A model generated the notes under the pieces. The model worked only from the letters and a program-made list of their open reading frames with translations, did no database searches and had not been told where the DNA came from. Both the position numbers and the translations under genes were made by a program. 33,153 bases of DNA from Gemmatimonadales bacterium. Lineage in GTDB: Bacteria; Gemmatimonadota; Gemmatimonadetes; Gemmatimonadales; GWC2-71-9. Where the stretch lies: positions 1 through 33,153 of the forward strand of contig JAICJD010000018.1 of the NCBI GenBank assembly GCA_025928645.1. The letters run 5' to 3'. How positions within the stretch are numbered: the first letter of the stretch is position 1; each line of letters starts with the position of its first letter. This document shows, piece after piece, positions 1 through 28,820 of this stretch.

Positions 1-1980
1 CAGCGCGAGCGCGCGGTCGCCGCCGAGCGCGCCCAGCGCGGTCACCGCGGCCTCGCGCACCTGCGCGGAGGTGTCGCGCGCCGCGTCGGCCAGCGCGGGC
101 TCAGCGACCGCGGCGGGAAAGGCGGCGAGCGCCTGCGCGGCCTCGGCCCGCGTCAGGAAATAGTCGGCCCCGCGCGCCGCGCGGGCGAGCGCCCGACCGG
201 CCAGCGAGTCCGAAGGTCGGGCCGCCAGGCGCGAGACGGCCCAGGCCCGCTGCCAGAGATGCGGGTGGCGCTCGAGCAGACGCGCCAGCCACGCCGTGGG
301 CTGATCGAAGTCGAGCGTCTTGAGCACGGCGTTCTCGTCGTCGAACGCCACCATCGTGGGCGCGCCGGGCAGGCTGTCGATGCGGACCGTCTGGTCCCGG
401 CGGTCGATGGTCACCCGGCGCACCACGTCGCCCGCCGCGGTGCCGACCCGGATCGCGATCGGGGCGCGGAACACGGTGGGGACGCTGAAGCGGAGGCCGG
501 TGCTGTCCGCGGTCGCCGTATCCACCTGGGTCTGGTGCACCGCGAGCGTGAGGGCGCGCGCCGCCGAATCGTAGCTCGACGTGACAGTGAACGCCGGATA
601 GCCCGCCTGGTAGATCCACTGCGACCAGAACCAGCCGAGGCTCTGTCCGGTCGCCGCGAGCACCGCCTGGCGCAGGTCGTCGCTCGTGGCGGTGCCGTAG
701 GCGTGGTCGGTCAGGTAGCGGCGGATCGACGCCCAGAACCCCTCCGGCCCGAGCAGGGTCTTGAGCATCTCGAGCACCAGCGCGCCCTTGGGGTACACGT
801 TGTTCGAGCTGTAGGTCGAGAGCGGCATCCGCCGCCGCGCGTCGAGGCCGAGGAACTGCTGGTACTCGTCGAGGTAGTAGTCCTGCTCCGCGTGCGCCCC
901 CAGCTTCGCGCCCCAGTACTGTCCGGGCATGAACTCCGCCATGCCCTCGTTGAGCCAGTAGTTGCCCCAGTTCTCCGCGGTGACGAGATCGCCGAACCAC
1001 TGGTGGGCCAGCTCATGCGGGATGAGCGACCGGCGGTACCAGGGCCGGTCGCGGTAGGCGCGCGGGCCCGGCAGCCAGTCCACCAGGGTCGTGGCGCTCA
1101 CGTTCTCCATGCCGCCGATGAAATCAGCGACGGTGACCTGGGCGTACTTGTTCCACGGGTAGGGCACGCCGGTGAGCCGGCTGTAGGTCTCCATCACGTC
1201 GGGCGTCATGCCGAACAGCGGCCGCGCCAGGGCGCTGTCCTCGCGGTAGACGTAGTAGTCCACCGGGACGGTGCGCCAACGGTCGGCGATCCTCACGAAC
1301 GGCGCGGCGGCGAGCGAGATGAGGTAGGTCGAGGCCGGCTTGTCCTGGCGCCACGTGACGGTGTGCTGCCGCCCGGGCGCCGGCCGGTCGCTCACCAGCC
1401 GGCCGTTGGAGACGACCGTGAGCGCGGCGGGCACCGTCGCCGCAAGCTCCCACGTGGCCTTGTCGGCGGGGCCGCCCCACGTCGGCAGCCAGCGCGGGTT
1501 CCCGTCGGTCCCGCCGCCGGTATACACCTGCTGCGGGCGGTGCGGGCGGCCGTCGTCGGTGAAGAAGTAGAGGCCCTGCCCCTGCCGGATGTTGCCGTGG
1601 TAGTCCACCGTGAAGCGCACGGTGTCGCCGTAGCGCGCGGGGCGCGCGAGCCGCACCACGAGCGAGTCGTTGGGCCGGCCGAACCCGCGCGACGGGGTGA
1701 CGCTCCGGACGACCAGCATCTTGCCCATGTCGAGCACCACCGAATCCACCCGCGGGCGGCGCGCCACGAGCGTGGTGGCGACCCGGGCGTCGAACGTGAT
1801 CGAGTCCCAGTCGAAGTTGCGGATCTCGATGCGCTGGTGAATGAGGTCGTAGTCGTGCGAGGGCGTGAAGCCGCCGTTGACGACGCGCTCGAGGTTGGTC
1901 TGCGCGGCGAGCGGCGCGCCGGCGGCGAAGCCCGCGAGGATGCCCGGGACGGCGACGCGAAGCACGCGCAGCGAACGCAT
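1..1980 (-). CDS. Secreted M1-family zinc aminopeptidase with C-terminal HEAT-like repeats (3' end outside window)
   Basis: Likely a zinc-dependent aminopeptidase trimming N-terminal residues from peptides outside the cytoplasm. The visible 660 codons start at ATG 1978-1980 with a signal peptide ending near ALAAQ-like residues GAPLAAQ (about residue 27). The M1 exopeptidase motif GGMEN lies at residues 289-293 and the zinc site HELAHQW at 322-328, followed by NEGMAEF carrying the third zinc ligand. The last 80 or so visible residues are Ala/Leu-rich helical repeats resembling HEAT repeats, and the frame is still open at base 1, so the protein is partial here. A TACATT box 6 nt before ATG suggests a leaderless transcript. 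It is divergent from the chromate operon. Family assignment is firm; the substrate is unknown. Confidence 0.93.
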   Translation of the reverse strand, partial: MRSLRVLRVAVPGILAGFAAGAPLAAQTNLERVVNGGFTPSHDYDLIHQRIEIRNFDWDSITFDARVATTLVARRPRVDSVVLDMGKMLVVRSVTPSRGFGRPNDSLVVRLARPARYGDTVRFTVDYHGNIRQGQGLYFFTDDGRPHRPQQVYTGGGTDGNPRWLPTWGGPADKATWELAATVPAALTVVSNGRLVSDRPAPGRQHTVTWRQDKPASTYLISLAAAPFVRIADRWRTVPVDYYVYREDSALARPLFGMTPDVMETYSRLTGVPYPWNKYAQVTVADFIGGMENVSATTLVDWLPGPRAYRDRPWYRRSLIPHELAHQWFGDLVTAENWGNYWLNEGMAEFMPGQYWGAKLGAHAEQDYYLDEYQQFLGLDARRRMPLSTYSSNNVYPKGALVLEMLKTLLGPEGFWASIRRYLTDHAYGTATSDDLRQAVLAATGQSLGWFWSQWIYQAGYPAFTVTSSYDSAARALTLAVHQTQVDTATADSTGLRFSVPTVFRAPIAIRVGTAAGDVVRRVTIDRRDQTVRIDSLPGAPTMVAFDDENAVLKTLDFDQPTAWLARLLERHPHLWQRAWAVSRLAARPSDSLAGRALARAARGADYFLTRAEAAQALAAFPAAVAEPALADAARDTSAQVREAAVTALGALGGDRALAL

Positions 1981-1986
1981 GCGCGG

Positions 1987-1992
1987 AATGTA
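1987..1992 (-). promoter_or_regulatory. Candidate -10 box (TACATT) of the M1 peptidase gene
   Basis: On the minus strand TACATT ends 6 nt before the ATG at 1980. This spacing places transcription start at or next to the start codon, so the mRNA would be leaderless. No clear -35 hexamer is visible. Three other genes in the window show the same TANNNT-to-ATG arrangement, which raises confidence modestly. Confidence 0.4.
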
Positions 1993-2343
1993 ATGGGCCG
2001 ATGGACTCGTCATTCCGCTCGCCGTTCCCTCCGTAGCCGGACGCAACGTCTTCGCGGAAGGTCCCCGCGGCTTGCGGCTTCAGGTTGACGACCTCCGGAT
2101 GGGCCTCCTCAGGCGCCGGTCGTCACGTTATCTGGTCGGCAGGGGCGGCGGGAGGCCCTGGCGGCGCTTCTCCGTTCCCTGCCCCTTGTTCGTCGTTCGT
2201 CCTCCGGCGCCCTTCTCGCGCGCGATGTGCGTCCGCAATATGCGTCGGGCCGGGCCGATGTCGAAACGGCGCCTGCCGCCCGAGCGATGGCGCCCCTGCC
2301 TGGGGTATGGGCGAGCCGCGTGCCGGGCCGGCTTGCGTTGCTT

Positions 2344-2357
2344 GTAACCGTGGTTAC
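2344..2357. promoter_or_regulatory. Perfect inverted repeat GTAACC-GT-GGTTAC in the candidate chromate-operon promoter
   Basis: Two 6-bp arms are exact reverse complements separated by 2 bp, ending 10 nt before the ATG of the first chrB gene. The dyad sits between a possible -35 (TTGCGT, 2333-2338) and a possible -10 (TACCTT, 2355-2360), with 16 bp between them, and it overlaps the -10. That is a typical operator position. ChrB proteins are known chromate-responsive regulators of chrA, so autoregulation through this site is the simplest reading. This is inferred from position only. Confidence 0.45.
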
Positions 2358-2367
2358 CTTGGGTGGC

Positions 2368-2925
2368 ATGCCGCCGACGCCCTGGATCCTGCTCTCCTCA
2401 CGGCTCCCTCGGGAGCCCAGCCGGCTCCGGCTGGGCATCTGGCGCCGGCTCAAGCGGCTCGGCGCCGTGCTCGTGCACGATGCCGTCTGGATGCTGCCGG
2501 CCGATGCCAAGACGCGGGAGGCGTTCGAGTGGCTGGCGGAGGAGATCGACGAGCAGGGCGGCACGGCATGGGTCTGGGAGGCGGCCGGCCTGTCGTCGGG
2601 TCAGGACCGCGAGGCCGTCGAGCTGTTCCGCCGTGAAGCGAGCGCCCGGTATGCCGAGATCGGCGCGGCCGCCCGGGCCATCCGGGGCACGATGACCCGA
2701 GGGCGGCCCGGCGGCCGGCGGCGGCCCTCCCCATCGGCCCTGTCCCACGCCGAGCGGCAGCTTCGGGGGCTCGAGCGCGCCCTGCGGCTGGAGCGCCGCC
2801 GCGACTACTTCCGGGCCGAAGGCCGCGCCGAGGCGGGCACCCTGGTGAGGGAGGCGCTCGCCGCGGTCGAAGCCTTGGCGTCAATGCCGGCCGGGGAAGG
2901 AGCTCGTCGTGCTTTGGGTGACTAG
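2368..2925 (+). CDS. chrB: Chromate resistance regulator, ChrB N-terminal domain protein
   Basis: 185-residue protein matching the N-terminal half of ChrB: WILLSSRLPREPSRLRLGIW at residues 5-24, then a GAVLVHDAVWMLPA segment typical of the family and a Lys/Arg-rich helical tail. ChrB senses chromate and controls chrA expression in known systems. In classical ChrB this domain is fused to a C-terminal domain; here the frame stops at TAG 2923-2925 and the C-terminal domain is the next gene, overlapping by 17 nt. ATG 2368 was chosen over upstream in-frame starts because homology begins there and a promoter-like box with dyad lies just before it. First gene of a six-gene operon. Whether the split is ancestral or recent cannot be told from one sequence. 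Confidence 0.85.
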   Translation: MPPTPWILLSSRLPREPSRLRLGIWRRLKRLGAVLVHDAVWMLPADAKTREAFEWLAEEIDEQGGTAWVWEAAGLSSGQDREAVELFRREASARYAEIGAAARAIRGTMTRGRPGGRRRPSPSALSHAERQLRGLERALRLERRRDYFRAEGRAEAGTLVREALAAVEALASMPAGEGARRALGD

Positions 2926-3328
2926 ACCGCATCCACACATCGACCGGACGGCGTGCGCCTGGCTGATCCGGCGTTTCGTCGATCCGGAGGCGACCTTCGC
3001 CTTCGCACCCGACCCCGACGGGGCCCGGGCGCTCGGCGGCACGCCGTTCGACATGCGCGGCGTCGAGCTCGGGCACCACGAGGGCCGCTGCTCCTTCGAG
3101 TCCATCCTTCTCAAGCACGGCCTCACAGATCCGGCGCTGCACGAAATCGCGGCCATGGTGCACGACGCCGATCTCGACGACGAGAAGTTCCGCTCCCCCG
3201 AAGCCCCTGGACTGGACGTGATCGTCCGCGGGCTCGGTCTCGTCGTCCAGGACGACCACGAGCTGCTCGGCTTCACTCATCGGGTGTACGACGGGCTGTA
3301 CGCATGGCTCGGACAAACACCGCAGTGA
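2909..3328 (+). CDS. ChrB C-terminal domain protein (stand-alone)
   Basis: 139 residues from GTG 2909. It matches the ChrB C-terminal domain from its first residues: WVTRPHPHIDRTACAWLIRR at 3-22, then FDMRGVELGHHEGRCSFE, then HEIAAMVHDADLDDEKF, the conserved His/Asp/Glu-rich stretch. It has its own Shine-Dalgarno, GGAAGGAG at 2894-2901, 7 nt before GTG, inside the end of the upstream chrB gene. This argues for a genuine separate gene rather than a sequencing frameshift. It probably acts with the N-terminal domain protein in chromate sensing or handling. Stand-alone copies of this domain are known in other bacteria. The 3' end overlaps chrA. Confidence 0.85.
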   Translation: MLWVTRPHPHIDRTACAWLIRRFVDPEATFAFAPDPDGARALGGTPFDMRGVELGHHEGRCSFESILLKHGLTDPALHEIAAMVHDADLDDEKFRSPEAPGLDVIVRGLGLVVQDDHELLGFTHRVYDGLYAWLGQTPQ

Positions 3329-4494
3329 CCGGGCGCAGCGGTCCTCCCGCGAGCGTGCCCCTCGCCGCGCTCACCTCCTATTTTCTGCGGCTCGGCACGT
3401 TCGGGTTCGGGGGGCCGATCGCCCTGACCGCGGCCATGCATCGCGACCTGGTTCAGGAGCGCCGATGGGTGACGGCGCAGGAGTACAGCGAGGGACTGGC
3501 ACTGGCGCAGCTCGCGCCCGGGCCGCTGGCCGCGCAGCTGGCCGTCTATCTCGGCTGGGCGCGACGAGGCGTGCTCGGCGCGACCCTGGCGGGGGTGGCG
3601 TTCGTCGGACCGTCGTTTCTCATGGTCACGGTGCTCTCGGTGTTCTATCTCCGGTTCGGCGAGCTCGGGTGGATTCAGGGCGCCTTTTACGGGATCGGCG
3701 CGGCGGTCATCGCCATCGTGGCCCGCGGCGCCGGCAAGCTGCTCGGCTCCAGCGTGGGCCGCGATCCCCTGCTCCGGGGCGTCGTGCTGGTGAACGCCCT
3801 CGTCGTCGCCTGGACGGAGGCGGAAATCCTGTGGGTGTTCGCGCTGAGCGGCGGGGTGGTGCTGGCCTGGCGAGTGGTGCGCGAGCGCGCCCCGGCCCGG
3901 GGGGCCACGGTTGCGTCCGTAGTCCCGCTATGGCTGGTGACGGGCCTGCACGGCCCCGCCTCCGATGCGATGCTGGCGCGCATCCTGGGCTACTTCGCCA
4001 AGGCCGCGGTGGTGGTGTTCGGCAGCGGGCTGGCCGTGGTGCCGTTCCTGCACGGGGGCGTGGTCGGCGACTACGCGTGGCTGAGCGAGCGCCAGTTTCT
4101 CGACGCAGTCGCGGTCTCGATGATCACGCCGGGACCCGTGGTCATCACGGTGGCGTTCATCGGCTACCTCGTCGCCGGACCGCTCGGCGGCCTGCTCGCC
4201 GCGTTCGGCATGTTCCTGCCGACCTACCTGGCCGTGGTCCTGGCCGCCCCGTCGTTTCATCGGCTGACCGCCAACCGCCACCTCAAGGCGGCGGTGGACG
4301 GGGTGACCGCCGCCGCGACCGGCGCCATCGCGGGGGCGGTCGTGGTGCTCGGACGTCGGGCGATCACCGACGCCGAGACGGGCGCGATCGCGCTGGCCAC
4401 CCTGCTGGTGCTCCTCCGCGTGCGGCGGGTACCGGAGCCCCTGGTGATCATCGCCGCGGGCGCTGTCGGCGTCGCGCTGACGCAGCTCGGCTGA
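3304..4494 (+). CDS. chrA: Chromate efflux transporter, long-chain two-domain ChrA
   Basis: Inner-membrane transporter of the CHR family that exports chromate. The 396-residue length and two homologous hydrophobic halves fit the long-chain class. The first half starts with FLRLGTFGFGGPIALTAAMH near residue 27 and contains LAQLAPGPLAAQLAVYLG. The second starts with YFAKAAVVVFGSGLAVVPFL and contains SMITPGPVVITVAFIGYL; the paired PGP motifs are family hallmarks. Several transmembrane helices are evident in each half. I used ATG 3304, which overlaps the preceding gene by 25 nt. GTG 3325, giving a GTGA overlap with that gene's stop, is an equally plausible start and would remove 7 residues. Function is well supported by the adjacent chrB genes. 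Confidence 0.93.
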   Translation: MARTNTAVTGRSGPPASVPLAALTSYFLRLGTFGFGGPIALTAAMHRDLVQERRWVTAQEYSEGLALAQLAPGPLAAQLAVYLGWARRGVLGATLAGVAFVGPSFLMVTVLSVFYLRFGELGWIQGAFYGIGAAVIAIVARGAGKLLGSSVGRDPLLRGVVLVNALVVAWTEAEILWVFALSGGVVLAWRVVRERAPARGATVASVVPLWLVTGLHGPASDAMLARILGYFAKAAVVVFGSGLAVVPFLHGGVVGDYAWLSERQFLDAVAVSMITPGPVVITVAFIGYLVAGPLGGLLAAFGMFLPTYLAVVLAAPSFHRLTANRHLKAAVDGVTAAATGAIAGAVVVLGRRAITDAETGAIALATLLVLLRVRRVPEPLVIIAAGAVGVALTQLG

Positions 4495-4531
4495 CCGGGC
4501 GGAACCGCCGGACGAGGAAAGGACGGCGCGC

Positions 4532-5533
4532 ATGGCACAGGGCACGCTCGTGGTCTCTCGCGGCGAGGTGGCGCGCGCGCTGACCACGCCGGAGTGCATC
4601 GAGGCCGTGGAGCGCGCGTTCCTTCGCCACGGCCGGGGGGAGACCATCCCGCCCGGCGTTCTCGGTACGCACGTCGAGGGCGGCGGCTTTCATGTGAAGT
4701 CGGCCGGCCTCCCGGACGCCATCGGAGGCCGCCCGGTGTTCGCGGCCAAGGTGAACGCCAACTTTCCCGGCAACCCGGACCGAAACGGCCTTGCCACCAT
4801 TCAAGGCGTGATTGCGCTGTTCGATGCCTCGGACGGGCGCCTGCTGGCGCTGCTCGACTCCGGCGAGATCACGAGCCTCCGCACGGCCGCGGCCACCGCC
4901 GTGGCGGCGAGGTATCTGGCGCCGGACGCCGCGCGGGTGACGATCTGCGGCTGCGGGGAGCAGGCCAGATACCAGCTCCGCGCCCTGGCGTGCGTTCGTT
5001 CCCTGGAATCCGTGAGGTCGCTCGACTCGAACGCGGAGCGGTCGCGCCGGTTCGCCGCCGAGATGACGGCAGAGCTGGCGCTCGACGTCGTGGCCATCCG
5101 CGATCCGGCCGAGGCCGCGCGCGAAACCACGATCTGGGTGACCTGCACGCCCGCGCGCCGCTGGCTCCTGGGCCGCGAGCACGTAGCCCCCGGTGCCTTC
5201 GTGGCCGCGGTCGGCGCGGACCACCCCGACAAGCAGGAGATCGAGCCCGAGCTGCTCGCCGCCGGCGCTGTGGTGGCGGATGTCCTCGATCAGTGCGTCG
5301 CCATGGGCGACCTGCACCACGCGATCGACGCGGGCCTCATGGGCCGCGAGCAGGTCCGCGCCGAGCTGGCGGAAGTGGTGGCGGGACACAAGCCCGGCCG
5401 GCTCGACGCCGCCGAGATTGTCGTATTCGACAGCACGGGCACGGCGCTCGAGGACGTGGCCGCCGCGGCGGTGGTCTATGAGAAGGCGATGGTGAAGGGC
5501 GTCGGCCTCAGCGTTCGGCTGGGCGCGGCGTGA
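4532..5533 (+). CDS. Ornithine cyclodeaminase / mu-crystallin family NAD(P)-dependent dehydrogenase
   Basis: 333-residue cytoplasmic enzyme of the OCD/mu-crystallin family, whose members act on amino or imino acids (ornithine cyclodeaminase, alanine dehydrogenase, ketimine reductase). Conserved features are AAKVNANFPGN with the substrate-binding Lys (K73), SGEITSLRTAAATAVAARYL at 110-129, the dinucleotide loop GCGEQA starting at G140, GADHPDKQEIEPELL with the catalytic-type Asp, and STGTALEDVAAAAVVYEKA near the end. A strong ribosome site, GAGGAAAGG at 4514-4522, precedes ATG 4532. It lies 37 nt after chrA and overlaps the M20 peptidase by GTGA. The exact substrate cannot be read from sequence, and its link with chromate resistance is unexplained. 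Confidence 0.88.
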   Translation: MAQGTLVVSRGEVARALTTPECIEAVERAFLRHGRGETIPPGVLGTHVEGGGFHVKSAGLPDAIGGRPVFAAKVNANFPGNPDRNGLATIQGVIALFDASDGRLLALLDSGEITSLRTAAATAVAARYLAPDAARVTICGCGEQARYQLRALACVRSLESVRSLDSNAERSRRFAAEMTAELALDVVAIRDPAEAARETTIWVTCTPARRWLLGREHVAPGAFVAAVGADHPDKQEIEPELLAAGAVVADVLDQCVAMGDLHHAIDAGLMGREQVRAELAEVVAGHKPGRLDAAEIVVFDSTGTALEDVAAAAVVYEKAMVKGVGLSVRLGAA

Positions 5534-6957
5534 GGGCGACTCCAGCCCTGGGCCCGGAGGCAGCGGCCCCGGCCGGGGACGGGCCGCTCGCCTGGCTGGC
5601 CCGCCACGAGACGGTCGTCCTGGCCCGACTGAACGAGTTCCTCGCCATTCCCAGCGTGAGCACCAGGGCCGAGCACCGGGCGGACGTGGCGAGGTGTGCC
5701 GCGTGGCTCGCGGCGGAGCTCCGGCGGATCGGGCTCACGGCCGAGTGCCTCGCGACGCCCGGGCATCCGGTCGTGCTGGCCGAGTGGCGCGGCGCTCCGC
5801 GCGATGTGCCCACGGTGCTGATCTACGGGCACTACGACGTCCAGCCGCCGGAGCCGCTCGGGCCGTGGGCGTCGCCGCCGTTCACGGGCACGGTGCGGGA
5901 CGGCCGGCTGTATGCCCGTGGCGCGGCCGACGACAAGGGCCAGCTCTGGGTCCACGTCGCCGCACTCGAGGCGTGTCTGGCGGCGCGCGGCGCGCTGCCG
6001 GTCAATGTCGTGATGCTGGTCGAGGGAGAGGAGGAGGTCGGGAGCCCGAGCCTGGCCGGCGTGGTCGCGGCCGAACGCGCGCGGCTCGCGTGCGACTACA
6101 TCGTCATCTCGGACACGGTGATGCTCTCGCCCGAGGTACCGAACATTCTCGGGTCCATGCGCGGGCTGGCGTACTTCGAGCTCACGGCACGCTCGGCGGC
6201 GACCGATCTCCACTCGGGCCAGTACGGGGGCGTGGTGGCGAACGCGGCGGCCGGCCTGGCTCGCGCCGTGGCCTCGCTGGTGGACCCTGGCGGGCGGGTC
6301 GCGATCCCGGGCTTCTACGATGACGTCCGGGAGCCATCGCCGGCACGGCGCGAGGAGCTGGCCCGATTCCCGTTCGAGGAGGAACGCTTCGCCTCCGACA
6401 GCGGGATCGACGTCCTGATCGGGGAGGAGGGCTATACGGCACTGGAGCGGCTCTGGCTCCGGCCGACCTGCGAGGTGAACGGCATCTTCGGCGGGTACAT
6501 TGGCGAAGGGGCCAAGACGGTGATTCCGTCGGCCGCGGCGGCCAAGGTGAGCTTTCGCCTGGTGCCGGACCAAACCCCCGAGAGAGTCGAGCGCCTGCTC
6601 CTGACGCATCTCGCGAGCCTCGCGCTGCCCGGGGTGCGGATCGACCTCCGCCGACTCAGCGGCAGTCTGCCCTGGCGGACGCGCGGCAACACGGCCGGCC
6701 TGGCAGCCGCCCGACGCGCGCTTCGGACCGCATTCGCCGGCGACCCGGTCGGCGGCGGGACCGGCGGCACCATCCCGATCGTCCCGGAGCTCGCGCGGTC
6801 CTTCGACGCCGAGATTCTCCTCATCGGGTTCGGGCTGCCGGGCGAGAACGCCCACGCGCCGAACGAATGGCTCGATCTCGAGACCTTCCGGCGCGGGGCT
6901 CGGGCGGTGGTTGCGCTGTACGAGGAGCTGGGGTCCCGTACCGGACGGGAATCGTGA
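5530..6957 (+). CDS. M20-family dipeptidase/carboxypeptidase (ArgE/DapE/carnosinase type)
   Basis: 475-residue di-zinc peptidase. Metal-site motifs are visible in order: YGHYDVQP with H101 and D103, ARGAADDKG with the bridging Asp at 134, EGEEEVGS with the general-base Glu at about 167-168, DLHSGQYGG opening the dimerisation lid domain, and the final HAPNEW histidine. This order and length fit the dipeptidase/carnosinase branch of M20. No signal peptide is visible, so it is probably cytoplasmic. The GTG start at 5530 overlaps the preceding stop as GTGA, and its own end overlaps the next gene in the same way, so the trio is translationally coupled. Likely substrate is a dipeptide or N-acyl amino acid, possibly feeding the upstream OCD-type enzyme; that link is inference. 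Confidence 0.92.
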   Translation: MRATPALGPEAAAPAGDGPLAWLARHETVVLARLNEFLAIPSVSTRAEHRADVARCAAWLAAELRRIGLTAECLATPGHPVVLAEWRGAPRDVPTVLIYGHYDVQPPEPLGPWASPPFTGTVRDGRLYARGAADDKGQLWVHVAALEACLAARGALPVNVVMLVEGEEEVGSPSLAGVVAAERARLACDYIVISDTVMLSPEVPNILGSMRGLAYFELTARSAATDLHSGQYGGVVANAAAGLARAVASLVDPGGRVAIPGFYDDVREPSPARREELARFPFEEERFASDSGIDVLIGEEGYTALERLWLRPTCEVNGIFGGYIGEGAKTVIPSAAAAKVSFRLVPDQTPERVERLLLTHLASLALPGVRIDLRRLSGSLPWRTRGNTAGLAAARRALRTAFAGDPVGGGTGGTIPIVPELARSFDAEILLIGFGLPGENAHAPNEWLDLETFRRGARAVVALYEELGSRTGRES

Positions 6958-8054
6958 CAGCCGCCCACGGCTTCGCCCGCCCTCCAAGGATCGGCCGGGC
7001 GCTGCTCACGGCCGTGCTCCTTGCCGCGTGCGCCCCCCTGGCCAAGCCTTCCTGCGCGGCGTGTTCTGGTCGGGTCGCCGCGCTGGTACACGCCTGGGCT
7101 GCCGCGGCGGCGCCGGCCGGCGTCGAGACCGCTTCGCCGCTCGCGAAATGGCGCATCGTCGCCGACGTTCCCCTTCCCGGTCCGCCCGCGCGCTTCGACT
7201 ATCAGAGTTTCGACACGACGACGGGGTGGCTCTGGATCGCCCATATGGGAGCAGGCGAGGTCCTCGCCTTCGACGTGAGGGCTCGCCGGGTGACCGCCCG
7301 GGTGCCGAATATGCCGGGGGTGACGGGCATACGCGTCGTGCCGAGCCTGCGGCGGGTATTCGCGTCGCTCAGCGGAGACCATGCGGTCGCGGTGCTCGAC
7401 AGCCGTAACGGGCAGGTCACCGCGCGAGTGCCCGGGGGCCGGTTTCCCGACGGGGTGGCGTACGCGCCTCAGGCTCACAAGCTGTACGTGTCGGACGAGC
7501 GTGGCGGACAGGAGCTCGTCATCGATGTGCCCTCGTCCTCGGCCCGCCGGGCCATCCGACTCGGCGGCGAGGCGGGGAACACCCAATACGACGCCGTGAC
7601 GGCTCGGGTGTGGGTGGCGGTGCAGACGCGCGAAGAGCTTGCCGCGATCGATCCGCTCGCCGACTCGGTGGTCGCGCGCGTGCCCACGCCGGGGATCCGG
7701 CGTCCGCACGGGATTCTCGTGGACGCCGACCACCGTTTCATTTACGTGGCGGGCGAGGAGAACGCCCGCCTAGGCATCCTCGACCTGCGCACGATGCGGA
7801 TCGTTCGAACGTATGCGGTGGGAGGTGAGCCGGACGTGCTGGCCATGGATCCAGGGCGGCGGCGCCTGTTCGTCGCGGCCGAATCAGGCGTGATCTCGGC
7901 GTTCGTCGCGCGTGGCGATTCGCTCGTGCCTTTGCCGCGGTACGAGGTCCCTCATGGTCATTCCGTCGCGGTGGACCCGACCACCCACCTGGTGTACGTG
8001 CCGCTCGAGAATGTGAAGGGGAAGCCCGTGCTCCGGATTCTCCGCCTGGAATAA
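6954..8054 (+). CDS. YncE-like beta-propeller lipoprotein
   Basis: 366 residues from GTG 6954, which overlaps the M20 stop as GTGA. The N-terminus has an export signal with a lipobox LAAC, lipidated Cys at 26, so it is probably anchored facing the periplasm. The rest is a series of about 40-residue beta-blades typical of YncE/SMP-30-like propellers, with recurring phrases such as GWLWIAHMGAGEVLAFDVRA, RVFASLSGDHAVAVLDSRNG, KLYVSDERGG, RFIYVAGEENARLGILDLRT and HLVYVPLENVKG. Such folds serve as binding or scaffolding domains; no catalytic residues are evident. It is the last gene of the operon beginning with chrB. Its role there is unknown. Confidence 0.8.
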   Translation: MTAAHGFARPPRIGRALLTAVLLAACAPLAKPSCAACSGRVAALVHAWAAAAAPAGVETASPLAKWRIVADVPLPGPPARFDYQSFDTTTGWLWIAHMGAGEVLAFDVRARRVTARVPNMPGVTGIRVVPSLRRVFASLSGDHAVAVLDSRNGQVTARVPGGRFPDGVAYAPQAHKLYVSDERGGQELVIDVPSSSARRAIRLGGEAGNTQYDAVTARVWVAVQTREELAAIDPLADSVVARVPTPGIRRPHGILVDADHRFIYVAGEENARLGILDLRTMRIVRTYAVGGEPDVLAMDPGRRRLFVAAESGVISAFVARGDSLVPLPRYEVPHGHSVAVDPTTHLVYVPLENVKGKPVLRILRLE

Positions 8055-8115
8055 GATCCGCCGGCCCCCGAGCATCTCGATGCAGAGTGACGCGCCCATC
8101 AGATCGCCCGCCTCC

Positions 8116-8871
8116 TCATCGGCGAAGCTGGACGCCGGCGTAGATCCGGCGGTCGAGCCGGCGATCCTCCGGGCCGCTCACACCCCAGCCGAACGCCGCC
8201 AGCAACGTCACGAGCGGGCCCAATTGCGCTCGCCCGCCGCCACCACAGAGCGTGCCGACGCCGTCGAGCTCCGCGCCCGCCTCCGCGTGGCATTCTCCCA
8301 GCAGCTCGAGCCAGGGCCGGGCCAGACGGGACACGGCCAAGCCGAAGATGAAACCCGACGCCCCCTCCGCCTGCTCCCATCCCGCATCGGCGTTGAGGTG
8401 CACTGGACCGACCGCCCAGGCGACCTCGACCGGCAGCAGCACGGATGTTTCCGCGTCGGCCACACCTCTCGCCACCGCACCTCTGGAACCGGCGAACGAG
8501 ACCTGAGGATACGTCGAGACGGCCATTCCGCGCTCACCGCCGTCCACGAAGCGCAGCTTCACCCCGACATTGAGATTGCCGAGCCCCGCTTTGGCGCGGG
8601 CACCGCCCCCCGCGGCCACTCGCCAGGGCATCTCGGCCTTGAGTTGCATGCGAGGTCCGACGCCGAGGTTCAGGTCCGCGCGTGGTGCGTCGTAGTCAGT
8701 ACCCCCGAACGAGCGTTCGGCCGCGAACGAGAGATTGAGCTCGACGTGTCCGTTGCCCGGCGTGCCGGGGTCGTCCGTCACGAGCGGCGGTCCACCCTGG
8801 GCAGACGCCGATTGCGCGAAGGCAAATGCGGCCAAGGCGCAGAGACGCGCGGCCTCCGGGACCAGATGCAC
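8116..8871 (-). CDS. Putative outer-membrane beta-barrel protein, function unknown
   Basis: 251 residues from GTG 8869-8871. A signal peptide ending SASAQ is followed by GGPPLVTDDPGTPGNGHVEL, an opening common to exported proteins annotated as putative transporters or phenol-degradation-type barrels. Alternating hydrophobic and polar beta-strand segments with aromatic ends (HVELNLSFAAERSF, LNVGVKLRFVDGG, VAWAVGPVHLNADAGWE) and a C-terminal RIYAGVQLRR strand support a small barrel. It begins 17 nt after the rnhB stop, so it may be co-transcribed with the ribosomal block. No good Shine-Dalgarno is visible and no ATG suits, so the start is uncertain by a few codons. Confidence 0.6.
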   Translation of the reverse strand: MHLVPEAARLCALAAFAFAQSASAQGGPPLVTDDPGTPGNGHVELNLSFAAERSFGGTDYDAPRADLNLGVGPRMQLKAEMPWRVAAGGGARAKAGLGNLNVGVKLRFVDGGERGMAVSTYPQVSFAGSRGAVARGVADAETSVLLPVEVAWAVGPVHLNADAGWEQAEGASGFIFGLAVSRLARPWLELLGECHAEAGAELDGVGTLCGGGGRAQLGPLVTLLAAFGWGVSGPEDRRLDRRIYAGVQLRR

Positions 8872-23942: not shown

Positions 23943-24965
23943 CTAGAGCGCGGCCAGCTCCTCCGCCACCCGCGTGAGCATCGCGTGCCGCTCCGGCCAG
24001 GGCAGGAACGCGCTCGCGAACCCGTCCAGGATACAGCGGTCGATCTCCGCGCGGGTGAAGCCGAGCTCGGTGTGGGCGAGCCAGTACTCGTCGCTCAGCG
24101 TCACCCCGTTCATGAGCCACCCGTCGGTGCACAGCGTGACGACGAGCCCGGCGTCGAGATAGCCGCGCACCGGGTGGTCCGCGGCCCGCCGCACCGCGCG
24201 GGTCTGCACGTTGCTCGTGATGTTGATCTCGATCGGGATCCGATGGTCGCGGACGTAATCACGAAGGCCCGGGTCTTCGTACAGCCGGGTCCCGTGGCCG
24301 ATGCGGTCGGCGTGGCAGTGGTGCAGCGCCTCGGCGATCGAAGGGGCGCCCGCGGCCTCGCCCGCGTGGATGGTGATGGCGAGATTGCCGTCGGCCGCGA
24401 TGTCGAATGCCGCCTGGTGGACGCCGGGCGGGCGGCCCGCCTCCCCGCCGGCCAGATCGAACGCGACCACGCCCTGGTCGCGGTAGGTGACGCTCAGCCG
24501 GGCGATCGCCACGGACACCTCGGGCGCGTAGTGGCGCAGCGAGCAGTTGATGACCCGGGTTACCACGCCGAAGTCGTTCTCGCCCCGTGCCAGGCCGCGG
24601 AGCTCGGCCTCGAGCGCGGCTTCCATGGCGAGCCCGCCCCGGGTGCTGAGCCGGGGGCAGTAGCGCACCTCGAGGTAGCGGAGCCCGTCGCGCGCCGCGT
24701 CCTCCACCATCTCGTAGGCGACGCGCTCGATGGCCTCGGGCGTCTGGAGCAAGGGGATCGTGTACTCGAAGCGCTTGAGGTAGTCCTCGAGGCTGGCCGC
24801 GTTGCGCACGAGCATGAACTCGCGGAGCGCGTCCGGATCGGTGGTCGGGAGGGCGAACCCTGCCTCGCGCGCCAGCTCCACCATCGTGGCCGGCCGGAGC
24901 GCGCTGTCGAGGTGGACGTGCAGCTCCGCCTTGGGCAGCCGGCGCAGCAGCTCACGCGTCAGCAT
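23943..24965 (-). CDS. add: Adenosine deaminase family protein
   Basis: 340 residues. Adenosine deaminases hydrolyse adenosine to inosine and ammonia using one zinc ion. The metal and catalytic residues are visible: H16 and H18 in AELHVHLDSALRP, H200 and E203 in TIHAGEAAG, H224 in RIGHGTRL and D281 in CTDGWLMNGVTLSDEY. The residue after D281 is Gly where vertebrate enzymes have a second Asp and many actinobacterial ones Asn, so base recognition may differ slightly. There is no signal peptide, so it is cytoplasmic. It overlaps the small upstream gene by 14 nt. Neighbouring nucleotidase, transporter and phosphorylase genes strongly support a nucleoside role. Confidence 0.92.
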   Translation of the reverse strand: MLTRELLRRLPKAELHVHLDSALRPATMVELAREAGFALPTTDPDALREFMLVRNAASLEDYLKRFEYTIPLLQTPEAIERVAYEMVEDAARDGLRYLEVRYCPRLSTRGGLAMEAALEAELRGLARGENDFGVVTRVINCSLRHYAPEVSVAIARLSVTYRDQGVVAFDLAGGEAGRPPGVHQAAFDIAADGNLAITIHAGEAAGAPSIAEALHHCHADRIGHGTRLYEDPGLRDYVRDHRIPIEINITSNVQTRAVRRAADHPVRGYLDAGLVVTLCTDGWLMNGVTLSDEYWLAHTELGFTRAEIDRCILDGFASAFLPWPERHAMLTRVAEELAAL

Positions 24966-25197
24966 CGGCGTCCTGCTCGCCGCGCCGGGCGCGGACGATC
25001 ACGCGGAGGATGGCGCCCGCGCCGAGCGGGCTCTCGAGCGGCAGCGCGATGCCGCGCGCGTCGGTCACGAGCGCGGCGCCGTCCTCCGCCCGGGCCGCGA
25101 GCGCGGGGTCGTGGGCCCGGATGGCCGCGCGCACGCTGGCGCCCGCGGGGAGCTCCACCGGCGTCGCGTTCACGAAGACGCGGATCGCGTCGCTCAC
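24952..25197 (-). CDS. Small ThiS/MoaD-like (beta-grasp) protein, function unknown
   Basis: 81 residues from GTG 25197, which overlaps the nucleotidase stop as GTGA; its own end overlaps add by 14 nt. Both overlaps and the unbroken frame support a real gene. The pattern IRVFVNATPVELPAGASVRA, then GAALVTDARGIALPLESPL and GAGAILRVIVRARRG, resembles the strand-helix-strand layout of ThiS/MoaD sulfur carriers. The C-terminal Gly-Gly needed for sulfur transfer is missing and the tail is DADADA. It may be a structural or regulatory relative. I cannot assign a function; the fold is inference. Confidence 0.6.
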   Translation of the reverse strand: MSDAIRVFVNATPVELPAGASVRAAIRAHDPALAARAEDGAALVTDARGIALPLESPLGAGAILRVIVRARRGEQDADADA

Positions 25198-28100
25198 GGC
25201 CGGCTCGACACGAAGCCCGCCGCCCGCACCACCTCGACCGGCTGCGGCAGCCGGCGGAGCAGCGCGGCCACCGCCTCGACGTCCACCAGCCCCGCACGCT
25301 GGAACACGAGAGCGCGGAGCACAGTGAGACCGCCCGCGCCCTCCACCGTCGGCAGATCGGTGGCCAGGGTCACCTCCCCCTCGCGGCGCAGCTTGCGGCC
25401 GCCCTGCAGCACGACGCCCTTGACCCGGTGCCCGGGCCGGGCCCGAGGATCGTAGCGCACCTGCGCGCCGGCCAGATGCACGGTCGGCCCGTCACCGGCC
25501 AGCGCCTGCTCGAGGAGCGCCGTAAGCTGGTTGCCGGTGAGCGTGAGCCGCACCAGATCGCTCCGCGCCGGCTCGACCTCGGACAGGCGCGCGAAGGTCG
25601 CCGGGCCGGCGGGCAGATCGGCGCGGATGGCTTCGCTCCGCACCAGGCCGAGGTCGGTGCGGAGCGCGTTGCGCCGCGCTTCCGCGATGAGCGCGCCGAG
25701 CGAGTACTGCGCGCCCTCGCGCGCCAGCGGGCGTTTGAGGTCGGCGATCGGCCGGGAGCGCACCGAGTCGCTCCGCCGGGCGTAGGCCTCGAGCGCCGCC
25801 CGCAGCTCGGAGCTGCCGCCGACCCGCGCCGAATCCACCGGCGAGACGCCCACCCGGAATTCGATGCCGCCCGCCGGCGTCTTCACCAGGTCCGCCACGC
25901 CTACCATGCGTCCGCCGCTCCCGGTCTCGAGAATGGGAATGCCCGCCACGCGGGTGGTCAGGAGCTGATGCGTGTGGCCCGCCACGATGAGGCCCACGCC
26001 GCGCCCGCCGAGCTGCTCCGCCAGCCGCACGATCTCGCCGGCGCACGCCATCGAGTCGCAGCTTCCGCCCGCGTGCGCCAGCAGGATGGTCGCCGCGGGC
26101 CGGCGCGCCGCGACCTCGCCCAGCACGTCGTGCAGCGCCAGCTCGCCTTCGCCGAACCGGAGTCCCGCCGTGCGGTCCGCCGGCAGCGTCCGCTTGGTGT
26201 CGGGCGTAATGTAGCCGATGACGGCCACCGTGAGACCGGCGACGTCCAGCAGCCGGTACGGCTGTACCCACTCGGGCCGGCGGCCCGTGACGCTGTCCAC
26301 GACGTTGGCTGCGAGCCATGGATAGGGCGACTCGCTCATGCGGGCCCGGAGCGCGTCGAGCGACCAGTCGAAGTCGTGATCGCCGAGGGCCGCGGCCGCG
26401 TAGCCCAGGCGGCCCAGCACGGCCATGCCGGCGCGGCCGCGGCTCTCGTTCTGCACCGGCGTCCCCTCGATCGCGTCGCCCGCGTCGAGCCGGAGCCCGG
26501 CGCAGCCGCACGCCGCGGCCAGGCTGTCGAACGCGGCCGCGAGCGCGCCGGCGCCGGGGGCGCCGGGCTCCGGGAGAAACCGGCCGTGGAGGTCGCCGGT
26601 GGCGAGCACGCGAAGCAGCACGGTGTCGCGCGCGCCGGCGGGGAGCGGCGGCGCCGGCACGTTGAACAGGCCGCGCACCGCGCGGTCCGCCACCTCGGGC
26701 ACGATGCGCCAGCTCGTGGTGCCGGCGAGCCGTTCCGGATCGATCGGGCTCGCGCTCCTCACCGCGTCGATCAGCAGGTCGACGATCCGCTCGCCCTTGT
26801 CGTAGACCACCGGCGCGCCGCGCACCATCTCGTAGCCGCCGGCGCCGGTCTGACGCGCGCTGCTGAGCGCCATGGTGAAGCTGTCGGACGGCTGGACCGG
26901 ACGGCCGCGCACGCTGAGACGCTGAATCCGGTCGCCGACCGGGCGCCGCAGATCGATGTCGTAGCTCGCCCCCGCCACCACGTCGTAGTCGTATCCCGGC
27001 ACCGAATCGTCGAGGCCGACGCGGCCGGCCGGGTCCACCCGGTAGTAGCGCGCACTCCACTCCAGGTAGGCCTTGAGCTGCGCCCCGCCCAGCCGGACCG
27101 CGCGGAGCGTGTGGTCGTAGGGATAGAGCGCCAGCACGTCGGCGACCCGGATCGTGTCGGCGTCGAAGCCCGCGCCGAGGTCCGGCGCGGAGGCCGCCGA
27201 CAGATCGGCGCCGGTCCGGCGTCGCAGGACGTCCTGCACGAAGTCGACGATCGGGACCGGCCCGACCCGGGCCGCGCGGGCCCGCATCGGGGCGGCCGCG
27301 AGGCCGACCGGCGTCCGGACCCACGTGCGCACGGCGTCCCGCGCCGGTCCGAGTCGCTGGGCCAGCAGCGCGGACGGGGCGACGTCGCGCGTGTCCACCA
27401 GCTCGGCGCGTACGCGGCGGATCCGCCACCGGCCCGCTTCGCGGACCAGGTCGAGGTGCACCACCGACACTTCGGCGCCGAACGGGCGCGGCTGCACGAA
27501 GTGAACGCCGTGGATGACCGAGTCGCGCATCTCGCGATGCGAGTGTCCAACCACCACGAGGTCCGGCGGCGACGGGAGGTCCGCGAGGCCGGCGGCGACG
27601 TTTTCGCCGCCGACCCCGCTCGTGTCGTAGGACGCCTGCCCATCCATGCCCGAATGGGTCAGCAGGATCCGCACGTCCGCGTCCTGCCGCATCGCCTCGA
27701 GCACCCGCGCCGCGGCCGGCAGGATCGGTCGGAGCCGCGCCTTGCCGGCGAGCTGCTCGCGGTCCCACACCGTCGTGCCGGGCGTCGTGAGGCCCGTGAC
27801 CGCGACCCGCACGCCCTGGCGGGGGAAGACGCGCCAGGCGGGAAACAGGAGCGAGTCTCCCGCCGGCGCGGCCAGGTTGGCGCTGACGTAGGCGAATCGG
27901 GCGTCGGCGACGGCCTGGCGGAAGAACGCGAATCCCCAGTCGAAGTCGTGGTCTCCCGGCGTGGCCGCGTCGTACCCGGCGAGGTTCATCGCCTCGACGA
28001 TCGGCTGCGGGTGCGCGGGCGCTACCCTGGCGTAGTAGGTGGCGAAGGGATCGCCCTGAAGCAGGTCGCCGGCGTCGACCAGCAGCACCTGCGCGGGGTA

Positions 28101-28283
28101 GCGCGCGCGGAGCGAGTCCGCCACCGCGGCCACGCGGGAAACGCCGCCGGCCCCGGGCCGATCGGCGAGATAGTCCCAATCGGTCGCGTGCCCGTGCACG
28201 TCGGCGGTGGCCACGACGACGACGTGCGCCGTGTCCTGGAAGGAAGCGGCGGCGAGGACGAGCGCGGTGAGGATGGGGAGCAT
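25194..28283 (-). CDS. Exported tandem 5'-nucleotidase / metallophosphatase (two full units in one chain)
   Basis: 1029 residues with a signal sequence (MLPILTALVLAAASFQ). Two complete UshA-like units lie head to tail. Unit 1 has ATADVHGH (D28, H30), DAGDLLQGDP (D70, D73), GDHDFDWG (110-117), LTHSG (H210) and VVVGHSH (H247, H249), then a nucleotidase C-domain (GADLSAASAPDLGAG, LALYPYDHTLRAVRLGG). Unit 2 repeats these at D564/H566, D600/D603, GDHDFDWS (634-641), H737 and AGHTHQ (H770, H772), with a second C-domain. Both units have Asp where the family usually has the metal-binding Asn of GNHE/GNHD. It probably dephosphorylates nucleotides outside the cytoplasm to feed the transporter. First gene of the operon, with a candidate leaderless promoter. 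Confidence 0.9.
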   Translation of the reverse strand: MLPILTALVLAAASFQDTAHVVVVATADVHGHATDWDYLADRPGAGGVSRVAAVADSLRARYPAQVLLVDAGDLLQGDPFATYYARVAPAHPQPIVEAMNLAGYDAATPGDHDFDWGFAFFRQAVADARFAYVSANLAAPAGDSLLFPAWRVFPRQGVRVAVTGLTTPGTTVWDREQLAGKARLRPILPAAARVLEAMRQDADVRILLTHSGMDGQASYDTSGVGGENVAAGLADLPSPPDLVVVGHSHREMRDSVIHGVHFVQPRPFGAEVSVVHLDLVREAGRWRIRRVRAELVDTRDVAPSALLAQRLGPARDAVRTWVRTPVGLAAAPMRARAARVGPVPIVDFVQDVLRRRTGADLSAASAPDLGAGFDADTIRVADVLALYPYDHTLRAVRLGGAQLKAYLEWSARYYRVDPAGRVGLDDSVPGYDYDVVAGASYDIDLRRPVGDRIQRLSVRGRPVQPSDSFTMALSSARQTGAGGYEMVRGAPVVYDKGERIVDLLIDAVRSASPIDPERLAGTTSWRIVPEVADRAVRGLFNVPAPPLPAGARDTVLLRVLATGDLHGRFLPEPGAPGAGALAAAFDSLAAACGCAGLRLDAGDAIEGTPVQNESRGRAGMAVLGRLGYAAAALGDHDFDWSLDALRARMSESPYPWLAANVVDSVTGRRPEWVQPYRLLDVAGLTVAVIGYITPDTKRTLPADRTAGLRFGEGELALHDVLGEVAARRPAATILLAHAGGSCDSMACAGEIVRLAEQLGGRGVGLIVAGHTHQLLTTRVAGIPILETGSGGRMVGVADLVKTPAGGIEFRVGVSPVDSARVGGSSELRAALEAYARRSDSVRSRPIADLKRPLAREGAQYSLGALIAEARRNALRTDLGLVRSEAIRADLPAGPATFARLSEVEPARSDLVRLTLTGNQLTALLEQALAGDGPTVHLAGAQVRYDPRARPGHRVKGVVLQGGRKLRREGEVTLATDLPTVEGAGGLTVLRALVFQRAGLVDVEAVAALLRRLPQPVEVVRAAGFVSSRP

Positions 28284-28292
28284 TGGGGAGGG

Positions 28293-28298
28293 AATATA
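28293..28298 (-). promoter_or_regulatory. Candidate -10 box (TATATT) of the nucleotide-scavenging operon
   Basis: On the minus strand TATATT lies 9 nt before the nucleotidase ATG, and the intervening bases are pyrimidine-rich with no Shine-Dalgarno. Both facts fit a leaderless transcript. Upstream lies a G/C-only repeat tract with no recognisable -35. Confidence 0.5.
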
Positions 28299-28300
28299 TC

Positions 28301-28355
28301 AGGCGGTCGGGCGGGCAGGCGGACGGGCGGGCAGGCAGGCGCGCGGGCGGCCGGG
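28301..28355. repeat. GC-only degenerate tandem tract (GGACGGGCGGGCAGGC type)
   Basis: A stretch almost entirely of G and C made of reshuffled GGGCGGGCA, GGCGGAC and GGCAGGC words. It lies immediately upstream of the nucleotidase -10 box and shares the GGACGG core with the tracts at 10756, 14972 (reverse complement) and 17786. Confidence 0.55.
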
Positions 28356-28368
28356 GGGCGTGCGCACC

Positions 28369-28393
28369 TTCATCCCGAGCGGAGCGAGGCCCC
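28369..28393. repeat. REP-like element, half copy
   Basis: Matches the left arm of the REP-like elements (TTCATCCCGAGCGGAGCGAG) and then diverges. No matching right arm follows, so it cannot form the long hairpin. It lies in the divergent region between the nucleotidase and the arsR-type gene. Confidence 0.75.
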
Positions 28394-28433
28394 CCGCTCA
28401 CGCCACTCCGCGGCGCTTCCCCATCCGTCTCGG

Positions 28434-28443
28434 CGTATATACG
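28434..28443. promoter_or_regulatory. Palindrome CGTATATACG upstream of the arsR-type gene
   Basis: A perfect 10-bp palindrome ends 11 nt before the ATG at 28455 and contains TATATA, a possible -10. It stands out as AT-rich in GC-rich surroundings. Overlap of a palindrome with the -10 is typical for autoregulation by ArsR-family repressors, so it is a candidate operator. No binding data; position only. Confidence 0.4.
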
Positions 28444-28454
28444 TTTCCCCGCAT

Positions 28455-28820
28455 ATGGACACGGCCCTCTCCGCCACCGAGCTGCTGCTCACCGTCGCCG
28501 AGCCGACCCGGCTCCGGATCCTCAACTGCCTCGCGGCCGCGCCGCTCTTCGTCTCCGATCTCCAGGCCATCCTCGGCCTGCCGCAGCCCACCGTCTCGCG
28601 GCACTTGCAGGTGCTGCGCCGGCTCGACGTCGTGCGCGACACCCCCATCGCCCAGTTCGTGCTCTACCGGCTGCGCCGCGACCTCGGTGCGCGGGGCCGG
28701 CTGCTCTCGGCCATTCTCGACGCGGTCGCGCGGGACGACGCCCTGATGCGCGCCGAGCGAGACCGCGCCGCCGAGCGGAGCCGCGCCCATACCAAGTCCC
28801 GGGTGGAGAGGACCTCATGA
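28455..28820 (+). CDS. ArsR-family winged-helix regulator
   Basis: 121 residues. ATELLLTVAEPTRLRILNCL at 7-26, LFVSDLQAILGLPQPTVSRH at 31-50 and LQVLRRLDVVRDTPIAQFVL at 51-70 give the ArsR winged helix, with the recognition helix around residues 43-56. The only Cys is C25 and the metal-binding CxC motif of the arsenic/cadmium sensors is absent, so it probably does not sense metal by that route. The basic, charged tail from about residue 93 may help DNA binding or dimerisation. Its stop overlaps the response regulator start (ATGA), placing a one-component repressor-type gene inside a two-component operon. A palindrome at 28434-28443 may be its site. Confidence 0.88.
   Translation: MDTALSATELLLTVAEPTRLRILNCLAAAPLFVSDLQAILGLPQPTVSRHLQVLRRLDVVRDTPIAQFVLYRLRRDLGARGRLLSAILDAVARDDALMRAERDRAAERSRAHTKSRVERTS

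Follow-up and report, generated by a model that had tools for sequence, protein, structure and literature searches.

A dehydrogenase of the ornithine cyclodeaminase/mu-crystallin type is a recurrent companion of chromate-resistance genes

Here, we analysed a 33,153-nucleotide stretch of DNA from a Gemmatimonadales bacterium (assembly GCA_025928645.1, contig JAICJD010000018.1, positions 1 to 33,153; hereafter the window), which carries a chromate-resistance (chr) operon of six genes on its + strand. The fourth gene encodes a dehydrogenase of the ornithine cyclodeaminase (OCD)/mu-crystallin superfamily and constitutes the new finding, as enzymes of this type are a recurrent and apparently unreported companion of chr genes. 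The operon is real and more than a product of chance, given that the OCD gene and, separately, the gene of a propeller protein (probably a lipoprotein) recur beside chr genes in other genomes. The dipeptidase encoded between them is ordinary when taken alone, while the dehydrogenase (with a peptidase) is recurrent beside chr genes. We lean, by a little more than even chances, towards the interpretation that a chr operon recruited a catabolic pair, consisting of a dipeptidase and an NAD-dependent amino- or imino-acid oxidoreductase, beside a ChrK-type lipoprotein. A peptidase and an oxidoreductase of this kind, possibly directed at aspartate, would then recur together as an accessory of chr loci. 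The operon and its candidate operator comprise the following features:

2344-2357, palindrome without strand: candidate chr operator GTAACCGTGGTTAC, a perfect palindrome (class GWWACN4GTWWC) located 10 nt upstream of the ATG of chrB
2368-2925, + strand: N-terminal half of chrB in a separate frame (ChrB_N, PF20229, 46 bits, cut-off 23)
2909-3328, + strand: C-terminal half of chrB (ChrB_C, PF09828, 164 bits, cut-off 25)
3304-4494, + strand: chrA, long-chain chromate efflux transporter (TIGR00937, 349.5 bits, cut-off 171.7)
4532-5533, + strand: chr-type OCD/mu-crystallin dehydrogenase, probably NAD-dependent (PF02423, 204.8 bits, cut-off 24)
5530-6957, + strand: M20 dipeptidase of the PRK08201 type (NF006053, 502 bits, cut-off 441)
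6954-8054, + strand: ChrK/ChrZ-type beta-propeller protein, YncE-like and a probable lipoprotein (43% identity to ChrK of Arthrobacter sp. FB24, 42% to its pMOL28 counterpart)

The six genes at 2368-8054 run head to tail, and all of their products (both ChrB halves, ChrA, OCD, M20 and propeller) were detected. GTGA overlaps are present at 3325, where GTG is an alternative start of chrA, at 5530 and at 6954; chrA and the OCD gene are separated by 37 nt, with an AG-rich stretch preceding the OCD ATG. A first-pass annotation of this DNA had described a co-directional six-gene operon with overlaps or a 37-nt gap and three exact or possible GTGA junctions, and had suspected the added genes to be part of it; gene calls, family assignments and the opposite-strand flanks (an M1 aminopeptidase gene at 1-1980 and a gene at 8116-8871, both on the minus strand) bear this out. 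Since both neighbouring genes run the opposite way, we regard the six genes as one unit, which is presumably transcribed as a single messenger. No sigma-70-like site was found on the + strand across 1900-8200, and one terminator-like site was found at 4672, compared to 1.6 in shuffles, both being weak evidence in such a genome. ChrB regulator domains adjoin a ChrA transporter, all above their cut-offs, which identifies a chr operon. The pair of chrB and chrA had been called classical, with one correction: chrB is split into two overlapping frames. The same split occurs in the nearest relative (locus L032) and in Arthrobacter FB24. The genome of the window is 97% complete and holds one ChrA at the search threshold.

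How regularly does the dehydrogenase accompany chr genes? We sampled 298 genomes of Gemmatimonadota along with 80 loci on contigs, in which genes outside the window were called by a codon model or by choice of the longest open reading frame. Homologues of the window OCD protein at E ≤ 1e-60 occur in 21 of the 298 genomes, all except G121 being in the fetched set. Of the resulting 20 loci (window included), 13 have ChrB or ChrA nearby, one has DUF1259 alone and six have none; a six-frame check found ChrB, ChrA and DUF1259 absent from the fetched stretches of L138, L142-L145 and L148. The 80 contig loci come from a scan of contigs, one genome per species, with a profile built on 14 chr-linked members from Gemmatimonadota; OCD sequence rather than linkage decided which loci were fetched. 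We defined chr-type OCD loci by about 42% or more identity to the window protein (52 loci; the other 28 served as controls) and linkage as a match that scores more than 75 bits and lies no farther than 5 kb away in the fetched stretch. ChrB or ChrA was linked to 31 of the 52 chr-type loci, but to 0 of the 28 others (Fisher p = 1.9e-8). With the five Gemmatimonadota loci removed, linkage was still observed in 27 of 47 (p = 5.6e-8). A tree of 98 OCD rows, obtained by a quick search and with many weak branches, places 70 of them in one clade (Shimodaira-Hasegawa-like approximate likelihood ratio test 100), of which 44 are chr-linked (L137 and L190 through DUF1259 alone), compared to 0 of the 28 outside. 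The contig loci L168 and L201, whose sequences are the same as those of training loci, were excluded from the tree and from the count of operon arrangements, but kept in the 31 of 52. In this count, the OCD gene lies in a same-strand chr run or is divergent from chrB or DUF1259 in 27 of 50 contig loci and in 14 of 19 loci from Gemmatimonadota, a total from which L148 (genome G109) is missing as its OCD gene escaped the gene caller. Same-strand runs with chr genes are found in 0 of 28 control loci. By their record titles, linked loci belong to Acidobacteriota, Krumholzibacteriota, Rokubacteria, Bacteroidota, Gemmatimonadota, 'Deltaproteobacteria' and Alpha- and Betaproteobacteria. The gene directly after OCD in one locus is a superoxide dismutase-rhodanese fusion (L173:3538-4488; ChrC- plus ChrE-like).

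Plasmid chr operons were rejected as a source of the OCD gene, with identities of at most about 41% among 40 plasmid matches listed, several of them annotated as EutC or BhcD. Among the titles and abstract openings listed in searches of the open-access literature, none shows an OCD or peptidase in a chr operon; the OCD mentioned in a paper on Cupriavidus metallidurans belongs to a siderophore cluster (PMC2864759).

The second recurrent element is a peptidase gene adjacent to the OCD gene, found at 15 of 41 chr-linked OCD loci and belonging to the unrelated families S51 (PepE), M20, M14 and M28. Dipeptidase E (S51; NF003642, 260 bits, cut-off 156) directly precedes the OCD gene in 12 contig loci, nine of which are chr loci: pepE and OCD share a run with chrB or chrA in L160, L162, L164, L165, L167, L170, L171 and L184, and lie between chrA and chrB in L161. 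Orders include chrB-pepE-OCD-DUF1259-chrA (L184) and chrB-chrA-pepE-OCD (L167). M20 genes precede the OCD gene in L205 (chrB-chrA-M20-OCD) and L200 (chrB-M20-OCD), their products being of subtype NF005914 with 32% and 36% identity, respectively, to the window M20, which is of subtype NF006053 and is a PRK08201-type dipeptidase. An ArgE/DapE-type M20 (L134), an M14 (L176) and an M28 peptidase (L182) follow the OCD gene. Among 90 OCD-neighbour proteins, the families listed include S51 (12), M20 (4), M28 (2) and S58, M17 and M19 (one each), the M17, the M19 and the second M28 having no locus assigned; because 25 of 132 families are listed, some neighbours remain unseen. None of the 25 of 56 families listed for 54 control-OCD neighbours is a peptidase. 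We infer from unrelated peptidases at the same post a shared task, namely the supply of amino acids to the OCD enzyme. The window M20 was rejected as a chr gene in its own right, as its homologues are too widespread (258 of the 298 Gemmatimonadota genomes at E ≤ 1e-100), though other M20 types adjoin the OCD gene in L134, L200 and L205. The co-occurrence of ChrA with the three added families, which the first-pass annotation had proposed as a check, holds for the dehydrogenase and the propeller; the widespread M20 is one of several peptidases. The surroundings of propeller and OCD matches fetched from the 298 genomes showed the last three genes together in the window alone; within this sample, the trio is thus neither widespread without chr genes nor one conserved module. 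Two loci of Acidobacteria gp7 (L177:2493-6751 and L186:8307-12507) have pepE and OCD directly before clpS-size genes and no chr genes; that of L177 is ClpS by Pfam, with clpA (TIGR02639) next, a gene order tying the pair to protein turnover outside chr loci. In a Woeseiaceae locus, also without chr genes (L191:7475-11082), the OCD gene lies between an S58 peptidase gene and a D-threonine-aldolase/BhcC-like gene.

What might the dehydrogenase do? The predicted model (predicted local distance difference test 95.5) and the PF02423 domain place it in the OCD/mu-crystallin superfamily, its closest folds being alanine dehydrogenase (1omo, Z 46.4), pyrroline-2-carboxylate reductase (6t3e, 44.6) and iminosuccinate reductase (6rqa, 44.5). 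Within the clade, the pocket residues H54 (70/70), K56 (70/70), N75 (69/70), F78 (70/70) and H263 (67/70) are conserved, whereas 21 of 28 control OCDs carry R, M, V, H and V at these positions, like 1omo. H263 and Q91 are common to the iminosuccinate reductase, not to the alanine dehydrogenase. D165, invariant in A2, sits where the second strand of the nucleotide-binding fold ends, and by a general rule this suggests NAD rather than NADP as cofactor. From the fold, the clade pocket residues and D165, the protein is an active-looking amino- or imino-acid oxidoreductase. By family cut-off, it falls outside the archaeal-type alanine dehydrogenases (TIGR02371, 233 of 409 bits; H54/K56 compared to R52/M54 in 1omo) and outside the iminosuccinate reductases BhcD (NF045643, 183 of 500 bits), though it shares H263 and Q91 with the latter. 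The names ornithine cyclodeaminase, alanine dehydrogenase, EutC and BhcD were therefore all rejected, as no NCBIfam cut-off was reached. PepE cleaves Asp-X peptides. Because of this and of H263 and Q91, aspartate/iminosuccinate is our first guess, as PepE neighbours and pocket residues weakly point to this substrate rather than to proline or a ketimine.

The palindrome at 2344-2357 is the sole match of its class in the window, and ChrB may bind there and control the operon. Within 120 nt upstream, the class occurs at 15 of 51 first ChrB starts compared to 6 of 1337 other genes, and further at 6 of 72 OCD, 2 of 59 ChrA, 1 of 47 propeller and 0 of 29 DUF1259 starts. Since the class was defined partly on loci later counted, the five defining starts were also excluded, which left 10 of 46 at ChrB (p = 4e-12). 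Five loci in which chrB and OCD start back to back, 63-150 nt apart (L132, L163, L182, L192, L193), have the same class in the gap, and L139, in which OCD leads the ChrB_C gene, has its own copy before OCD. An inverted repeat TGATTCA (L117, L132) was rejected as operator, such a site being present at just 5 of 61 ChrB starts. In Ochrobactrum tritici, ChrB responds to chromate and binds its own promoter, where a repeat spans -37 to -4 (PMC3817168); this repeat was discarded as a match since its sequence differs from the palindrome described here.

For the propeller, scores in the 298 genomes fall into two groups, with close homologues (about 44-66% identity) in 33 genomes and many remote propellers below about 31% identity. 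ChrB or ChrA is in the fetched stretch for 15 of the 33 genomes, window included. A lipobox LAAC near the N-terminus was judged by eye in the translation only. Gemmatimonadota chr/propeller loci (L048:10418-12646, L123:10183-12420, L120, L036 and others) often encode two further proteins, one a DUF5916-CBM9 protein of outer-membrane type and the other similar to 3-keto-disaccharide hydrolases, neither of which is known to be a chr gene product. At L032:8560-13804, the propeller gene is followed by a TauE/SafE sulfite-exporter-like gene. Burkholderia pyrrocinia (49% identity), Arthrobacter FB24 (43%) and pMOL28 of C. metallidurans (42%) are among the best plasmid matches, and all three genes sit in chr clusters (chr neighbours in L157-L159). 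Closeness to Arth_4252 and Rmet_6194 (43% and 42%) together with placement in a chr cluster identifies the window protein as a ChrK/ChrZ member. The first-pass annotation, which knew of no established link to chromate, was mistaken or incomplete here: the FB24 gene is chrK, chromate-induced, with the chrJ, chrK and chrL regions contributing to resistance (PMC2751784), and Rmet_6194 is chrZ, likewise chromate-induced, which adjoins chrY and the major facilitator superfamily (MFS) gene chrP (PMC2864759).

Substrate, direction and benefit of the OCD/peptidase pair could be conceived as follows. ChrB would hold the sole promoter at 2344-2357 until chromate enters, upon which all six products would be made together. 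ChrA would pump chromate out, with ChrK acting in the envelope, while the cytoplasmic dipeptidase would release amino acids from short peptides, e.g. from turnover of Cr(VI)-damaged proteins. The OCD enzyme would oxidise a released amino acid, most likely aspartate or another small one, to yield NADH and a keto acid, which may help the cells to withstand Cr(VI) and its oxidants. Taken further, this would amount to an unrecognised metabolic arm of bacterial chromate defence, in which a clade of NAD-linked imino- or amino-acid dehydrogenases is induced with the pump, pairs with any available dipeptidase and burns aspartyl or other peptides of damaged proteins, the resulting NADH and keto acids serving to reduce Cr(VI) and to counter oxidants; we consider this generalisation clearly less likely than not.

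Several observations weigh against a catabolic pair recruited for chromate defence. ChrB and ChrA are missing within 5 kb from 21 of the 52 chr-type loci (some contigs end early), and the control OCD loci are largely archaeal, so that chr operons may be rare in the source of most controls, although bacterial controls likewise show no chr genes. G008, the closest relative and a member of the same genus, carries chrB-chrB-MFS-chrA-propeller-TauE but neither OCD nor M20, so that the pair is dispensable. The pepE-OCD pair also has a life outside chr loci, as the unlinked pepE-OCD-ClpS loci L177 and L186 indicate, and the window M20 is generic. The OCD protein scores nearer to alanine dehydrogenase (233 bits) than to BhcD (183 bits), both below cut-off, and the folds rank 1omo and 6rqa close together; for the PepE proteins of these loci, an Asp-X specificity is presumed. 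PALP-type genes adjoin control OCDs as well (7 of 54), and because of this such a neighbour says little; BhcB-like neighbours were therefore rejected as evidence for the substrate.

Alternatively, the OCD enzyme might work in the reverse direction and use NADH to convert an imino acid (iminosuccinate, pyrroline-2-carboxylate or a cyclic ketimine) into an amino acid that protects the cell or that it needs, e.g. aspartate/NAD precursors or proline, with the peptidase feeding the same pool. This appears unlikely to us: the nearest folds do include iminosuccinate and pyrroline-2-carboxylate reductases, and clade members adjoin BhcB-like dehydratases (L189, L202) or a BhcC-like aldolase (L191), but the paired peptidase fits amino-acid breakdown better than synthesis, the BhcB-like scores (446 and 421 of 550) are below cut-off and none of these three loci is chr-linked. 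Less probable still is that OCD and peptidase genes are passengers, which merely share the chr promoter or island and contribute nothing to chromate tolerance. The absence of the pair from the nearest relative and from the plasmid chr operons viewed, and the generic M20, would fit such an explanation, yet the OCD gene recurs inside the operon over several phyla, is preceded by chr-type palindromes and is joined by different peptidases. Least of all do we expect that these operons do not serve chromate at all, with a ChrA of this type exporting another anion, possibly derived from the amino acid of the pair, and ChrB sensing it, even if the enzyme pair looks metabolic and little is known about which substrates the CHR family has besides chromate. 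Linked loci hold relatives of DUF1259 (ChrL/ChrY), the propeller (ChrK/ChrZ), MFS (ChrP) and superoxide dismutase-rhodanese proteins, and ChrB of O. tritici responds to chromate (PMC3817168).

Chromate resistance is commonly put down to efflux and its regulation, together with superoxide dismutase and a small number of lipoproteins. An OCD clade accompanying chrB and chrA in Acidobacteriota, Gemmatimonadota, Bacteroidota, Krumholzibacteriota, Rokubacteria and Proteobacteria suggests a metabolic need under chromate stress, and the finding supplies a named gene pair and a candidate operator open to direct test. Elsewhere in the window, a 1611-codon open frame at 23985-28820 with an ArsR-type helix-turn-helix near its end is overlapped by long minus-strand frames and is probably in part a shadow frame.

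Compared to characterised enzymes, the window OCD shares the fold (Z 44.5 and 46.4) and an Asp at D230 with BhcD (6rqa) and the archaeal alanine dehydrogenase (1omo), and H263 and Q91 with BhcD, whereas neither has H54 and K56 of the clade and its NCBIfam scores for both families are far below cut-off. Compared to known operons, the chr cluster of Arthrobacter sp. FB24 (chrJ, chrK, chrL) shares with the window the split chrB, chrA and a YVTN propeller, which in FB24 is the signal-bearing ChrK; it has a DUF1259 lipoprotein, and its chr genes were reported to be chromate-induced (PMC2751784). Its extra enzyme is a malate:quinone oxidoreductase, unlike in the window, and the FB24 stretch viewed has no OCD or dipeptidase. 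The chr cluster of C. metallidurans pMOL28 (chrO, N, P, Y, Z) has superoxide dismutase and rhodanese genes and, in the stretch viewed, no OCD or dipeptidase. It carries chrB, chrA, MFS, DUF1259 and the propeller gene chrZ in the same direction, and five downstream genes are reported to be chromate-induced (PMC2864759).

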